Assembly: GCA_024687165.1 (NCBI GenBank)
Contig: JAILEY010000065.1
Coordinates: 1-32,288, forward strand
From: Treponema sp.
GTDB taxonomy: Bacteria > Spirochaetota > Spirochaetia > Treponematales > Treponemataceae
Reading direction: 5' to 3'
DNA: 32,288 nt
Below, piece by piece: positions 8,969 to 24,575 of this stretch. The notes under the pieces were generated by a model. It was not told the origin of the DNA, did no database searches, and saw only the letters and a program-made list of their open reading frames with translations. The translations under genes and the position numbers were made by a program. How positions within the stretch are numbered: the first letter of the stretch is position 1; the number at the start of each line of letters is the position of its first letter.

Positions 8969-10836
8969 ACAGTTTCTTAAAAAGACAACGAATTTTTCTG
9001 ATAATGATTCCATGCCTTATTTTTCTTGCAGTAATCTATTTAAAATTCATTAAGCTTTCGTCAGGCAAAAAAAGCACTTTTATAATTCCGCAAGTTACTG
9101 TTGAACGCGGTCTGATTGTAGACAGAAACGAAAAACCGCTCGCAATTTCAACAACGTTTTATCATTTTTCAGTTACTCCAAAGCTGATTAAAAATCCTTC
9201 ACATTTTTCAAAACTCGTTGCACCGATTCTTCAGATGAATGAAGAAGAAATTGAAAAAAAGATTTCTGAAAACAAAAGCCTTTCATTTCTTTATCTGAAG
9301 AAAAAAATTTCTCAGGAACAGTTTGAAGATCTTTCAAGAATCATTTCACAAAACGATTATTATAATGCGTGTAAGTTCGATACAATTCCGGGAAGAATCT
9401 ATCCTGAAAACAATCTTGCAAGTCAGCTGATTGGATACATGGGAGATGAAGGACGCGGCTTAAGCGGGATAGAATATTCACAGCAGGATGTTTTGAGTCC
9501 ACAGATTAAACCAAATCAAACAGGTGCATTTTTTGGAAACAATGTTTACCTGACAATTGATGCCGGACTTCAGTACAAGCTTGAAAAAATCGTGCAGAAC
9601 GCAATGGAAGAAACAAAAGCTGATAACCTCCGCCTTATTGCAGCCAATGCAAAAACCGGAGAAATTCTTTCCTACATAAGTCTGCCATCGGTAAACCTCA
9701 ATGAATACAGTTCTGCATCCGCAAAAGAAAAAATTGACCGTCCTGCAGTTCTTCCATACGAACCGGGAAGCGTATTTAAAATCTTTTCTGTAGCAGCCTT
9801 TCTCAACTCACGAGTAATTTCTGCGGATGACAGTTTTCTCTGTGACGGAATTTACTCAAGGAAAACAAGCAGAGGTGAAGTCGTAAAGATTACTTGTCTT
9901 GCACACCACGGCTGGCTGAATGCCCGAAAAGCACTTGAACTTTCCTGCAACGACGCACTTGCACAGATGAGTGAAAAAATCAACACGGAAGATTTTCTTG
10001 TTTACATACATAAATTTGGATTTGGTGAAAGAACTGGAGTTGAACTTCCGTCTGAAACACCTGGCTTTGTAAGAAACACAGACGACAGATTCTGGTCGGC
10101 ACGCTCAAAGGCTACAATTTCAATCGGACAGGAAATTCAGGTAAGTGCACTTCAGCTTGTTCAGGCTGCAACTGCTCTTGCAAATAAAGGTCAGATTATC
10201 AAGCTTTCTTTAATTCACAAAATCTGCGACAAAGACAGAAACGTAATTTATGAACACAAAGTTGTTCCTGGAGAAAAAGTTTTAAGCGCATCAACGGCAG
10301 ATTATATTTTAAGCTGTATGGAAACTACAACAGAACGAGGAAACGCAACAAGAGCCTTCATCGGTGACATTTCAATAGGTTCAAAAACCGGAACCGCACA
10401 GATGGCAGAAAACGGAACCTACAGCAAAACAGACTTTCTCGCAAATGAAATTGCAATTTTTCCTGTAAACGATCCGCAGATAATTCTTTACATCGCAATT
10501 GAAAAACCTCAGGGCGGAGAAACCTACGCAGGACGAATCGTTGCACCTGTAATCAAAGCAACGGCAAACGAAATCATCGATCATCTTGGAATTGCCAGAG
10601 AAAATGCTGCTAGTCTTGCACACTCGGGGCGTACAAGAATTTCTTCAACTCAGCCTGTTGAATTAAAAACAAAAGTCCCTGATTTTACAGGAAGATCAAA
10701 AAGAGACCTTCTGCCTCTTCTTCAGCGTGATGACATAAGAGTAATCATCAAGGGTGAAGGATGGGTAACAAGCCAGACCCCGGAAGCGGGAACTCCAGTT
10801 ACAGGAAACATGACAATTGAACTCAATCTGGAATAA
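8965..10836 (+). CDS. ftsI: Penicillin-binding transpeptidase with C-terminal PASTA domain (FtsI/PBP2 class)
   Basis: A class B penicillin-binding protein that crosslinks peptidoglycan, probably septal. The 623-residue protein has a single transmembrane anchor (about 10-28), a dimerization domain starting at TVERGLIVDRN, and a transpeptidase domain with SVFK at 269-272, SCN at 327-329 and KTGT at 474-477. A PASTA domain occupies about 560-622 (VPDFTGRSKRDLL, SQTPEAGTPV). Length and layout fit FtsI; the symbol is likely rather than proven, since the usual dcw-cluster neighbours are absent. Translation is coupled to lepB upstream, and the next gene starts inside its last 20 bases. Confidence 0.9.
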   Translation: MNSFLKRQRIFLIMIPCLIFLAVIYLKFIKLSSGKKSTFIIPQVTVERGLIVDRNEKPLAISTTFYHFSVTPKLIKNPSHFSKLVAPILQMNEEEIEKKISENKSLSFLYLKKKISQEQFEDLSRIISQNDYYNACKFDTIPGRIYPENNLASQLIGYMGDEGRGLSGIEYSQQDVLSPQIKPNQTGAFFGNNVYLTIDAGLQYKLEKIVQNAMEETKADNLRLIAANAKTGEILSYISLPSVNLNEYSSASAKEKIDRPAVLPYEPGSVFKIFSVAAFLNSRVISADDSFLCDGIYSRKTSRGEVVKITCLAHHGWLNARKALELSCNDALAQMSEKINTEDFLVYIHKFGFGERTGVELPSETPGFVRNTDDRFWSARSKATISIGQEIQVSALQLVQAATALANKGQIIKLSLIHKICDKDRNVIYEHKVVPGEKVLSASTADYILSCMETTTERGNATRAFIGDISIGSKTGTAQMAENGTYSKTDFLANEIAIFPVNDPQIILYIAIEKPQGGETYAGRIVAPVIKATANEIIDHLGIARENAASLAHSGRTRISSTQPVELKTKVPDFTGRSKRDLLPLLQRDDIRVIIKGEGWVTSQTPEAGTPVTGNMTIELNLE

Positions 10837-12601
10837 AAATTTAGAATCTTTTAAAAACAGATTTCCTCAGCTTGAACAGCAGCTTTCAAAAGAAACTTGC
10901 AAAGAAATAATCATAGAAGAAACAAAAAACGGCAGCGTAACTGCAACAGAAAACGGACTTCTTCTTCATTCAAAATACAATCCACAACGGGAAGCTCAAA
11001 CTTTAATTTCTACATTTGACAGCTCAAAAAAAGAAGCGGCAATTTTTTTAGGATTCGGACTTGGACACGCACTTATTGAATTTGCAAAAAAAAATAAAAA
11101 TTCAACGATGATTGTTTTTGAAGAAAACATTCCGCATTTTTTTTCAGCACTTGAAGCTCTGGACTGGAGTGAAGTTTTTGCTCATGAAAAATTAATTCTT
11201 GCGTTAGGAGCAACAGCAGAAAATGCAGCCTCTTTAATCAACGGATTCAAGGCAGAAGAACTTCAAGTTTTCAAAGTTAAATCACAAACTGCACATGCAG
11301 AAGCTTACTTCAGCACAATAGAAGCAAAAATTGAACAGACAAAACAGAAAGAAGAAATTAATACAAATACTCTTGAAAAATTTGCAACTCTCTGGACAAG
11401 CAACAGCTTCAGAAACCTTGAATACATGGACAGTCTTTCAGGTGTAAAAAAATACTCTTCACGTGGAACTGAACTTCCATTTGTAATTCTTGCAGCAGGA
11501 CCAAGCCTTCAAAAACTTCTTCCGCATCTTGCCGAAATAAAAAAACGAGCTGTAATTGTCTGCGTTGATACAGCAGTTCATGCATGCATTAAAGCAGGTG
11601 TTGAGCCGGATTTTATAATTCTTGCGGATCCTCAGTATTACTGTGCGCTTCATCTGGAATTCTTAAAATGTCCTTCATCAATTTTAATAACAGAAATTGC
11701 AGCCTATCCTATGGTATTCAAATTTCCATGCAAGGAAATAGTTCTTTTTTCATCACTCTTCCCGATTGGAAATTATTTTGAAAAAAAATCAGAGGAAAAA
11801 GGTAAGCTCGCAGCAGGTGGAAGCGTAACAACAACAGCATGGGATTTTGCACGCCTTTGTAATGCAAAAGAAATTTTTGTTGCAGGAATGGATCTTGGAT
11901 TTCCTGGGAAACAGACACATATTCGTGGCTCACAGTTTGAAGAAAAAGCCCACATGGCAAGCACGAAAATTAAAAATGCAGAAACAGATAATGCAGTAAG
12001 TCTCTTTGGAGCAGCACCTTATATTGCAAAAGATTACAACGGCACTCCGATTCTTACTGACAAAAGAATGTCTCTCTTCAGCTGGTGGTTTGAAAATGAA
12101 ACTGCAAAAGCAAATGCTGCAGGAACAAAAACTTACACACTTACAGCGGAAAGTCTTTTCATAAAAGGAATTGAAAAATATCCTTTAGAAAAATTTCTTG
12201 AAAAAAAAGAAATCTCAGAATGCAAAAAAATCTTCTTTGATCAGGCTGAAAAAAATATTTCTGAAATCAAGACAAAAAGCATAAAAGAATTGAAAAAAGA
12301 ATTTTTCAGTAATCTTGAAAAACTGGAATCGCTTTCAAAACGCGCAATCAACCTTTGCAAAAAAGCTTCAGAAAACAGAATGCGTCTTCAAGAATATCTT
12401 GGAGAGCTTTCAAAAATTGACTCAGAAATTCTTAATTCAGAATGCAAGGATGCAGCATCATTAGTATTCCCTACTCAACGTCAGCTTGCAAAACTTTCAG
12501 AAAATCTTTCACAGGACAAACAGACATTCCAGATTCAGTACTCAAATCTGATTTACAGTGAACTCTTAAAATCCGTAAGAAACCTTCAAAAATTTATTTA
12601 A
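10817..12601 (+). CDS. DUF115 / MptE-like motility-associated glycosyltransferase-type protein (Maf family)
   Basis: 594 residues. The start is a TTG 20 bases inside the transpeptidase gene, with GGAAAC eight bases before it. Residues about 210-330 carry the DUF115/MptE-like core (FVILAAGPSLQKLLP, VDTAVHACIKAGVEPDF, LADPQYY), followed by FVAGMDLGF; the C-terminal 150 residues are helical and Lys/Glu-rich. In flagellated bacteria such Maf proteins transfer nonulosonic or related sugars to flagellin; several Treponema flagellins are known to be glycosylated. A flagellin substrate here is inferred from family and from the sigma-28-like promoters just downstream. The gene is cotranscribed with cell-wall genes, which is unusual for a Maf gene. 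Confidence 0.85.
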   Translation: MNSIWNKNLESFKNRFPQLEQQLSKETCKEIIIEETKNGSVTATENGLLLHSKYNPQREAQTLISTFDSSKKEAAIFLGFGLGHALIEFAKKNKNSTMIVFEENIPHFFSALEALDWSEVFAHEKLILALGATAENAASLINGFKAEELQVFKVKSQTAHAEAYFSTIEAKIEQTKQKEEINTNTLEKFATLWTSNSFRNLEYMDSLSGVKKYSSRGTELPFVILAAGPSLQKLLPHLAEIKKRAVIVCVDTAVHACIKAGVEPDFIILADPQYYCALHLEFLKCPSSILITEIAAYPMVFKFPCKEIVLFSSLFPIGNYFEKKSEEKGKLAAGGSVTTTAWDFARLCNAKEIFVAGMDLGFPGKQTHIRGSQFEEKAHMASTKIKNAETDNAVSLFGAAPYIAKDYNGTPILTDKRMSLFSWWFENETAKANAAGTKTYTLTAESLFIKGIEKYPLEKFLEKKEISECKKIFFDQAEKNISEIKTKSIKELKKEFFSNLEKLESLSKRAINLCKKASENRMRLQEYLGELSKIDSEILNSECKDAASLVFPTQRQLAKLSENLSQDKQTFQIQYSNLIYSELLKSVRNLQKFI

Positions 12602-12619: not shown

Positions 12620-12646
12620 TAAAGATTTTCAAACTCCGTCCGATAA
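12620..12646 (+). promoter_or_regulatory. Sigma-28-like (FliA) promoter of the small RNA
   Basis: TAAAGATT (12620-12627), 11 bases, then TCCGATAA (12639-12646). The sigma-28 consensus is TAAAGTTT-N11-GCCGATAA, so 14 of 16 positions match with the exact spacing. It begins about 20 bases after the DUF115 stop codon and points into the noncoding stretch. Confidence 0.72.
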
Positions 12647-12652
12647 TAATAT

Positions 12653-12801
12653 TAGCTTGAACAGCAGTTTTAATACAGACGGTTCTTGAGAGAAATCAAG
12701 AGGACATCCAGACGCCTGTGTTAAAATTAAGCATTGTTTTTTCAATGTAAATATCTCCATGTGAAAGGCCTTGAGGGTTTAGACTCAGGGCTTTTCTTTT
12801 T
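12653..12801 (+). ncRNA. Predicted small RNA (or structured leader) under a sigma-28-like promoter
   Basis: This stretch has no usable reading frame; its ATGs are followed at once by stops. It holds, in order, a hairpin TCTTGA/TCAAGA (12684-12689 with 12696-12701), a possible enclosing pair of ACAG/CTGT arms, a hairpin CATTG/CAATG around a T6 loop (12732-12747), and a 12-bp terminator hairpin with a T-rich tail. The predicted length is about 145 nt, from a start near 12653 to the tail near 12801. It does not match the c-di-GMP, TPP, 6S or SRP RNA patterns I know. A flagellar-regulon small RNA is my inference; an attenuated leader of the HD-GYP gene is the alternative. Confidence 0.6.
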
Positions 12802-12806
12802 CTTTT
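12764..12806 (+). terminator. Intrinsic terminator of the small RNA
   Basis: A 12-bp stem (12764-12775 with 12784-12795, two G-U pairs) around an 8-base loop, followed by a tract of T with few C. It lies before the second sigma-28-like promoter, so the upstream transcript would end here. Confidence 0.85.
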
Positions 12807-12815
12807 TAAATCAAT

Positions 12816-12843
12816 TAAAGATTTTTGATATTTCTGCCGATAT
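12816..12843 (+). promoter_or_regulatory. Second sigma-28-like promoter, facing the HD-GYP gene
   Basis: TAAAGATT (12816-12823), 12 bases, then GCCGATAT (12836-12843). The minus-10 half keeps the GCCGATA core; spacing is one base longer than the consensus. The start point would fall near 12850, leaving about 11 bases before the ATG. Confidence 0.6.
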
Positions 12844-12860: not shown

Positions 12861-14339
12861 ATGTTTACGTACGAACTTTCTGAAATTACAGCAGGTACAC
12901 ATTTTGATTCTCCAGCAAAGATAGATGAGCTTTTTGTCATCACACTTCCTCCATGTCCAATCACAAGAGAACAGCTTTCGGCACTTCAGCACTGGGGATT
13001 TTTAAGAATCAATGTTGACTCAGAAATGAAGAAACAAGCTCAACCCGCAGAAAATAAAGAAAAATCTGCTTCATCATCAGCACCAAAAAATTCAGCTTCA
13101 ATTGGAAAAATTGAAACAGTTGATCTTTCAGAATTTTCAGATGACGAAGGAAAAATACCGGAAGATCAGATCCCGGACAAATTTAAAACTTCAGAAGAAG
13201 TTGACATTTCAGATTTTACATCAGGATTTTCTGAACCAGCTGAAGAACCAAAAACATCTTCTGCAAAAAAACAGGTTCCTGATGATCTTAAAAATACAAC
13301 ACATGCAGCAAGCACATCACTCGCAGCATATGTAAACTCTCATTCAGGCGGGGCAACTGCAATACCTTCTGCAGTAGGTGGAACTGACGATATTTCCTCA
13401 GAAGAAGATGAACAGAAAAAAATTGAAGCTGCGCAGGAAACTTACGAAAAATTTCTTGATTTCATAAATCAGGTTTATACACACTATGCAACACACAAAG
13501 AATTTTCAATTCCTGAAATAAACGGAAAAGTTCTTGAACTTTGTAATTTCGTAAGGGAAAACAGAAGCTTTATTCTCCGCATTTCACCTAACTTTGAAAC
13601 AAGAAATAAAAATTTTATTCTGACACACAGCATGCGTACAACAGTTCTCTGCATTGTCATGGGACTCCAGCTTAACATGCCGTATGACAAACTGATTGAA
13701 CTTGGAGTTGCAAGTATCCTTCATGAAATCGGGCAGATTCGTCTTCCGCCTCAGCTTTACATGACAGACAAAATGCTTTCACCTTCAGAAAAAGCACAGA
13801 TGCAGACTCATACTGTGATCGGATATAAAATTCTCAAAGATGCAGGATTTCCTCTTTCAGTACAGCTTGGTGTTCTTGAACATCATGAGCGTGAAACAGG
13901 TACAGGATATCCGCGTGCATTGAAGGGCGATAAAATTTCACTCTATGCAAAAATCATTTCGATTGCTTGTTCTTTTGATGCAATTACAAGTCCAAGAACT
14001 TTTAAAGAATCAAAGACAACTTATGAAGGAATGATCGAGCTTTTAAAGAATGAAAATCACGCATACGACGATACTGTTGTTAAAGCACTTTTGTTCAGCA
14101 TCTCACTCTACCCTATTGGAGCATACGTTTATCTTTCAAACGGAAAAGTTGCTCAGGTTGTAAATGTTTCTCCAGTAAGCCCGAAAAATCCGATTGTAAA
14201 AATCATAGGTTCGGTAAATGCTGACGGGAAACCAAAGATCGTACAGACAGATGATGTTAATCTTAAAATCATCCGCGCAATGACTAAAAAAGAAACCAAA
14301 GACCTCAAGCAGGCACTTGGTGAAACTGAATCTGAATAA
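12861..14339 (+). CDS. HD-GYP-type c-di-GMP phosphodiesterase-like protein, variant HD dyad
   Basis: 492 residues, soluble. AAAGGG eight bases before the ATG supports 12861 over an ATG 36 bases upstream that lies inside the promoter. Residues 1-55 form a small N-terminal domain, 56-190 are acidic, Ser-rich linker, and about 195-470 carry the HD-GYP domain: H256 in THSMRT, a HEIGQ motif at 288-292, H317, HHE at 341-343 and GYP at 349-351. The canonical HD...K of HDIGK reads HE...Q here, so metal binding or catalysis may differ. HD-GYP proteins normally degrade c-di-GMP and control motility; the sigma-28-like promoter fits that. It is convergent with the AKR gene, 17 bases between stops. Confidence 0.88.
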   Translation: MFTYELSEITAGTHFDSPAKIDELFVITLPPCPITREQLSALQHWGFLRINVDSEMKKQAQPAENKEKSASSSAPKNSASIGKIETVDLSEFSDDEGKIPEDQIPDKFKTSEEVDISDFTSGFSEPAEEPKTSSAKKQVPDDLKNTTHAASTSLAAYVNSHSGGATAIPSAVGGTDDISSEEDEQKKIEAAQETYEKFLDFINQVYTHYATHKEFSIPEINGKVLELCNFVRENRSFILRISPNFETRNKNFILTHSMRTTVLCIVMGLQLNMPYDKLIELGVASILHEIGQIRLPPQLYMTDKMLSPSEKAQMQTHTVIGYKILKDAGFPLSVQLGVLEHHERETGTGYPRALKGDKISLYAKIISIACSFDAITSPRTFKESKTTYEGMIELLKNENHAYDDTVVKALLFSISLYPIGAYVYLSNGKVAQVVNVSPVSPKNPIVKIIGSVNADGKPKIVQTDDVNLKIIRAMTKKETKDLKQALGETESE

Positions 14340-23631: not shown

Positions 23632-23660
23632 TTTACTTTTTTTTCTAAAATACGCATCAA

Positions 23661-23745
23661 CATGGGGAGCTGGATAAATCCGGCTGAGAGTAGACTGTCA
23701 GTCTTGACCCTTTGAACCTGTCCGGATAATACCGGCGTAGGGAGA
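23661..23745 (+). promoter_or_regulatory. TPP (THI-element) riboswitch controlling the thiamine operon
   Basis: The conserved blocks are all present in order: GGGGAGC, GCTGG/CCGGC (P2), GGCTGAGA (23682-23689), a P3 hairpin AGACT/AGTCT (23692-23704), GACCCTTTGAACCTG (23706-23720), GGATAATACCGGCG (P4/P5) and TAGGGA. The last block continues as AGGGAG, which is the only Shine-Dalgarno for thiM, seven bases before its ATG. There is no separate terminator or expression platform, so binding of TPP would hide the ribosome-binding site directly. Confidence 0.96.
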
Positions 23746-23750
23746 ATTAT

Positions 23751-24575
23751 ATGAAACAAACACTTCTTGCAGAAATAAATTCTGCACTCGAAATGGTGCG
23801 CAAAAATAATCCGCTTGCACCATCAATCACAAACACAGTTACAATCAATTTTGTTGCAAACGCACAGCTTGCATGCGGTGGATCTGCAGCCATGGTTTAT
23901 CTTGCAGATGAAGGCGAGATGATGGCAAAAATCAGCAAATCAATGTACATCAACATGGGAACACAATTTACCTGTTATCCTGAAACATTGCCACGCACAG
24001 CAAAAGCATGTTTAGAAAACGGGAACAACTGGGTGCTTGATCCTGTAGGAATTGGCATTGGTGAGCAGAGAGAAAATATTCTCAAACAATTTAAGAATTA
24101 CAAGCCAAAAATTGTCCGTGCAAATGCAAGTGAAGTTATCGCGCTGGCTTCTCTTTGGGAACTGACAGAAAAATCAGAAAATAAAGTTCGTGGCGTAGAC
24201 AGTACAGATGAAGTTATTTCTGCAAAAAATGCTGCAGAAGCAATTGCAAAATTTACAGGTGGTGCTGTTGCAGTCAGCGGAAAAACAGACCTTGTTACTG
24301 ACGGCACAACTTCAGTTTTATGTCACGGAGGTTCTGAATATCTTCCGATGATTACAGGGGCTGGCTGTTCACTCGGTGGAGTCTGTGCTGTTTATGCAAA
24401 CGTTACAAATCCATTTTATGCAGCCCTCACAGCAACTGTTCTTTACAATGAAGCCTCTATGAATGCTGAAAAAATCTCAAAAGGTCCGGGGACATTTCAA
24501 TCAAATTTTCTTGATCAAATTTATTCTGTTTCAAAGAACGGCATAAAAGATTCAAACATCGAGATCATAAAATAA
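23751..24575 (+). CDS. thiM: Hydroxyethylthiazole kinase
   Basis: Phosphorylates 4-methyl-5-(2-hydroxyethyl)thiazole with ATP, the salvage route to the thiazole half of thiamine. The 274-residue protein shows the family landmarks PSITNTVTINFVANAQLACGG, GTQFTCYPETL in the position of the usual INIGT segment, NNWVLDPVGIG, RANASEVIAL, AVAVSGKTDLVTDG and MITGAGCSLGG (the catalytic anion-hole Cys-containing GxGC motif). Length is normal. It is the first gene behind the TPP riboswitch, so its translation should fall when TPP is plentiful. Confidence 0.95.
   Translation: MKQTLLAEINSALEMVRKNNPLAPSITNTVTINFVANAQLACGGSAAMVYLADEGEMMAKISKSMYINMGTQFTCYPETLPRTAKACLENGNNWVLDPVGIGIGEQRENILKQFKNYKPKIVRANASEVIALASLWELTEKSENKVRGVDSTDEVISAKNAAEAIAKFTGGAVAVSGKTDLVTDGTTSVLCHGGSEYLPMITGAGCSLGGVCAVYANVTNPFYAALTATVLYNEASMNAEKISKGPGTFQSNFLDQIYSVSKNGIKDSNIEIIK

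Follow-up and report, generated by a model that had tools for sequence, protein, structure and literature searches.

We analysed a 32,288-nt stretch of DNA from Treponema sp. (contig JAILEY010000065.1 of assembly GCA_024687165.1; hereafter the window) and describe an intergenic small RNA gene at positions 12653–12801 of its forward (+) strand, the strand of all window features given below, whose product is very probably a dedicated and hitherto undescribed regulator of flagellin messages. The RNA is a new family, absent from Rfam, and a comparison across related genomes shows that the loop of its core hairpin and the loop of a hairpin at a separate locus, in the 3' untranslated region (3'UTR) of a flagellin operon, co-evolve as complements. 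We propose with good confidence a small RNA that depends on sigma-28 and acts in trans, with a core-hairpin loop that would kiss the loop of the flaB-flaB 3'UTR hairpin and so affect the flagellin message.

A small RNA gene and its family

The start of the predicted transcript, of about 145–150 nt, is placed by a sigma-28 (FliA)-type promoter that can be read directly at 12620–12646, with TAAAGATT (12620–12627) and TCCGATAA (12639–12646) separated by a spacer of 11 nucleotides (N11). At a score of 14/16 this is the top-scoring sigma-28-like site of the 32-kb window, and shuffled windows held 0.0 sites at that score, which bears out the near-consensus promoter with exact N11 spacing described in an earlier note on this DNA. 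A sigma-28-like promoter was also present in 34/34 homologues fetched without selection for a promoter, 27–88 nt before the core and with N11 spacing in 32 of them, compared with only 4% of shuffled upstream stretches that reach the same score. The reading of such signatures as FliA promoters is supported by the CCGATAA -10 and TTAA -35 elements upstream of the mapped flaB2 start in T. denticola (PMC9481697), and we infer that the sites at the small RNA loci are active as such.

The 149-nt stretch 12653–12801 has a predicted folding energy of -47.7 kcal/mol (z = -4.7), and none of 200 shuffles was equally stable. Its conserved core hairpin (12670–12724; covariance models R1 and R2) combines a covarying stem of 10 bp, a lineage-specific inserted helix (12682–12702) and a near-invariant recognition loop, GACATCCAGA (12703–12712; family consensus RACATCCRGA), which is covered by a 14-base core pattern and has the complement TCTGGATGTC. 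A second small hairpin (12731–12748) appears in the predicted fold of the window sequence. Of the two hairpins originally proposed, the first is one conserved stem in the homologues, with the inserted helix in the window lineage. The intrinsic terminator (12763–12808), described before as a strong one of 12 bp, has a stem of 13 pairs (12763–12796) followed by a T-run, and a U-run lies downstream of the core in 28/34 homologues. A GUGUGAG-like terminator loop is common to 22 of these 34 (for example L004, L011, L038 and L047) in spite of differing stems, and the window lineage carries AUCUCC ahead of the terminator; this terminator-loop and AUCUCC region is possibly a second functional element of the small RNA. 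A small open reading frame within the RNA was considered and rejected, as differences in loop length are not multiples of three, whereas the stem covaries.

Diverged copies were found at the equivalent position in related genomes by DNA search (L003, L004, L005), and share the core GACATCCAGACRCC. The exact 14-base core pattern has one match each in 102 of 274 genomes of the family, with few control matches, and the covariance model of the core hairpin, which matches the window sequence, detects the RNA in 193 of the 274 Treponemataceae genomes and in 14 of 20 genera, as a single copy except for two genomes with two copies. A second covariance model matched 91 of 294 genomes, all in the same family, and yielded no copy in other families of the order. 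When promoter (-35/-10) and core pattern were searched jointly over 84,980 species genomes, the combination occurred at 64 places, and every record concerned either carries the name Treponema (Candidatus Avitreponema among them) or bears the label Spirochaetaceae, Spirochaetia, Spirochaetales or Spirochaetes; T. bryantii, T. parvum and Treponema sp. JC4 and C6A8 are among the isolates. The core stem covaries strongly, with 186 double-change cells against 74 in shuffled and at most 66 in slid controls. Compared with all 4227 Rfam families, neither the window RNA nor its oral-type homologue L134 nor any flaB locus scanned reached a gathering threshold, and the best sub-threshold match of the window RNA was at chance level; the impression that no known RNA family matches was thus correct. 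TD-1 and TD-2 are conserved RNA motifs in Rfam that are likewise confined to treponemes. Neither has a match in the window (cmscan), and the present RNA differs from them in being single-copy and in having a sigma-28-like promoter. In genomes G136–G147 of genus g41 neither the small RNA, with two weak matches only, nor a flaB-type target site was found.

In the window, as in many relatives, the element lies between a Maf-type and an HD-GYP-type gene, a position that would also suit a leader or attenuator belonging to the latter or a 3'UTR belonging to the former. Most genomes have both genes within the roughly 1.5 kb read on each side of the RNA; several that retain the RNA lack one or both there, and the constant position upstream of the HD-GYP gene expected of a cis-regulatory leader was not found. 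As the element moreover carries the signatures of a separate promoter and terminator, and the HD-GYP gene has a sigma-28-like promoter of its own downstream of the RNA, we regard a leader or 3'UTR as very improbable. Signatures of promoter and terminator together with broken synteny therefore indicate an independent gene, and the conservation of promoter, core structure and terminator strongly supports its assignment as a sigma-28-promoted small RNA gene. The earlier suggestion of a small RNA joining flagellar assembly to cyclic di-GMP control stands in this first part. The cyclic di-GMP link found no support beyond the neighbourhood and the shared promoter type, and the conserved partner of the loop is the 3'UTR of the flaB operon, not the HD-GYP gene.

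Two hairpin loops co-evolve as complements

The complement of the recognition loop was searched in 15 genomes, and the flagellin genes were inspected in seven. In all seven, 9–10 bases of the complement lie 25–67 nt past the stop codon of the second flaB gene of a flaB pair, within the loop of a short hairpin that is followed by a GC-rich hairpin or terminator and then by flaG and/or fliD. In genome G000 (G000:C53:45494-45503, minus strand) and its relatives the sequence 3' of flaB is TCTGGATGTC, complementary to GACATCCAGA of the window RNA. The stem of this flaB 3'UTR hairpin covaries as well. In G148, a genome called oral-type from its size and gene order, a separate sigma-28-like promoter for fliD lies beyond the target hairpin, which is therefore part of the flaB message there, a 3'UTR element. 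Across genera, the top of the GC-rich hairpin that follows the target site is conserved and contains GCGCC (L274, L276, L277).

At least nine consecutive Watson-Crick pairs between RNA loop and flaB target were found in 27 of 30 genomes, and where the loop changes the target changes with it. In the oral-type genomes of g42 the RNA loop AACATCCAGA is matched by the target TCTGGATGTT; in the g43 genomes, G150, G164 and the G172/G178/G195 clade the loop GACATCCGGA occurs with the target CCGGATGTC; and in G204, G061, G170, G020, G229 and G030 the loop AACATCCAGA is combined with the target CTGGATGTT. Even within one genus, G163 and G164 differ by A versus G in the RNA and by T versus C in the target, at exactly the paired position. 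Such co-variation was seen in about 10 lineages. Among 20 clade representatives, 38 of 40 combinations at the two variable positions are Watson-Crick pairs versus 23.5 after shuffling, and none of 200,000 shuffles equalled this number (permutation p<1e-5), a p-value that is to be taken as indicative because the clades were assigned by hand from genus labels and sequence similarity. Complementarity to a separate messenger RNA (mRNA) locus is hence conserved with compensatory change, as expected of a trans-acting small RNA. The loop duplex reaches about -13 to -16 kcal/mol in the matched genomes, and the target loop is mostly unpaired. The duplex of the whole small RNA with its target was no better than that of shuffles, but this calculation ignores intramolecular folding and is uninformative, and pairing was judged at the level of the loops alone. 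The two loci offer a clear natural case in which the loops of a trans-acting small RNA and of a 3'UTR co-vary, and this speaks for an interaction ahead of experiment.

Proposed function and competing explanations

In the mechanism that we propose, FliA would transcribe the small RNA after hook completion, when sigma-28 is active, and in the cell its loop RACAUCCRGA would pair, loop to loop, with YCYGGAUGUY of the hairpin situated between the stop codon of the second flaB gene and the terminator preceding flaG or fliD. The most likely effect is a control of the lifetime of the flaB1-flaB3 message through its 3' end, by which the supply of flagellin could be matched to the sigma-28 regulon. We lean slightly towards stabilisation over repression, with the action of GadY at the gadX 3'UTR as a precedent. 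The flaB1-flaB3 operon of T. denticola is described as having a sigma-70-like promoter, and flaB2 as having a sigma-28 promoter (PMC9481697). If these assignments hold, the small RNA would let sigma-28 activity act on sigma-70-driven flagellins; note, however, that a sigma-28-like site also precedes the flaB pair in G148 (14.5/16), and a weaker one in G000. Going further, the kissing pair might be a co-evolving lock and key across the Treponemataceae that sets the stoichiometry of flaB1-flaB3 versus sigma-28-driven flaB2, or the location or export-coupled translation of flaB mRNA, and does not act by ordinary translation repression, an idea that we hold as tentative and somewhat doubtful.

Several observations weigh against the proposed mechanism. 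In genome G149, of 1.14 Mb and called T. pallidum-sized from genome size and gene order, neither model, pattern nor piecewise scan found the RNA, and yet the genome keeps a flaB3 3'UTR hairpin with the loop TTCGGATGTC (L275 3802-3812). The three genomes with fewer than nine consecutive pairs are G306 and G307, where a single mismatch sits at the edge of the loop, and G119, where a single mismatch is internal, although G307 and G306 keep nine pairs when counted from the opposite end of the loop. In the window lineage the inserted helix adjoins the loop, which is partly occluded by G-C pairs (probability of being unpaired 0.1–1.0). Finally, sequence alone does not tell in which direction the effect would go.

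A competing explanation is the reverse relation, in which regulation would start from the flaB 3'UTR hairpin and the flaB message, which is very abundant in motile cells, would sponge a small RNA with other mRNA targets. Co-variation demonstrates pairing and not its direction, and TCTGGATGTY is present elsewhere too, several times in each genome; only at flaB, however, did a conserved hairpin recur beside the same gene, the non-flaB sites not having been studied individually. Nor is a second target indicated by the unpaired anti-Shine-Dalgarno segment AUCUCC (AAAUAUCUCCAUG), for which we rejected an action on translation starts, as it pairs with flaB starts (n=2) at -9.7 to -10.1 kcal/mol, no better than with other gene starts, which reach up to -11.4 kcal/mol. 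We consider such sponging unlikely, and give the same low weight to a further possibility that concerns CsrA, whose recognition element is a GGA in a hairpin loop. The target loop GGAUGU could be a CsrA-binding hairpin that the small RNA masks, antagonising CsrA on the flagellin mRNA, and T. denticola does have CsrA, with sites reported near the Shine-Dalgarno sequences of flaB1 and flaB2 (PMC9481697). Against this, positions outside the GGA co-vary with the small RNA, as predicted by pairing and not by CsrA. Conserved GGA motifs are absent from the small RNA itself, for which a role as a CsrA sponge was also rejected. That the element is a structured intergenic stretch arisen by chance has a negligible probability, being refuted by the family-wide core pattern, the covariance matches, the covariation of the stem and the co-variation of loop and target.

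Relation to known RNAs, neighbouring genes and further observations

Loop-loop kissing as proposed for the treponeme RNA is known from OxyS and fhlA in E. coli, and GadY of the same organism acts at the gadX 3'UTR and raises the mRNA level, although it is, unlike the treponeme RNA, a cis-encoded antisense RNA. Neither is flagellar, and to our knowledge neither combines kissing in trans with a flagellin 3'UTR. Closer in context are the sigma-28-dependent small RNAs UhpU, MotR, FliX and FlgO of E. coli, of which UhpU, MotR and FliX pair with flagellin mRNA; these are UTR-derived and Hfq-bound, with pairing reported inside the fliC coding sequence (PMC10578931), whereas the treponeme RNA is an intergenic gene of a different phylum with its own promoter and a predicted partner in a 3'UTR hairpin loop. 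FliA-dependent small RNAs also occur in Campylobacter, where CjNC1 and CjNC4 have conserved predicted flagellar targets and CJnc170 (FlmR) affects flagellar length and motility (PMC4626219, PMC11187230). Compared by description and not by sequence, CjNC1 and CjNC4 differ in their predicted binding to 5'UTRs of sigma-54 genes, and the parts of these sources consulted report no 3'UTR kissing hairpin.

No description of the present RNA was found in the open-access literature, subscription papers having been outside the search, and no flagellar small RNA of treponemes was found in the open literature searched; the accessible part of a paper on non-coding RNAs in periodontitis (PMC7160235) likewise shows no treponeme RNA. 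Treponemes build their periplasmic flagella from several flagellins in defined ratios, and how these are controlled is poorly understood. On this question, a conserved small RNA with an evolutionarily supported target in a flagellin operon provides a specific handle, as the exact loops can be mutated in the tractable T. denticola.

The gene upstream of the small RNA in the window (10817–12601) is a Maf-type flagellin glycosyltransferase by its Pfam matches MptE-like and Maf_flag10_N, and the one downstream (12861–14339) is of the HD-GYP type (Pfam HD_5), which confirms the placement of the RNA between two such genes in the earlier note; both are frequent but not constant neighbours. Directly ahead of the HD-GYP gene lies a second sigma-28-like promoter, TAAAGATT-N12-GCCGATAT (12816–12843; scan score 13.5), so that this gene probably belongs to the flagellar regulon too.

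The leaders of flaB genes carry strongly conserved and apparently structured motifs, GTTCCTGCTGT...TCTAAAAC...GGGGGCGCAA, and also TATAGGGTGGTAAACC just past the promoter, with no Rfam match among the flaB loci scanned. They occur between two flaB genes in L190, L193, L194, L196 and L198, and at a third flaB in L202, L203, L204 and L205. Elsewhere in the window, a thiamine pyrophosphate (TPP) riboswitch scores above its gathering threshold at 23653–23761 (+), upstream of the gene at 23751.
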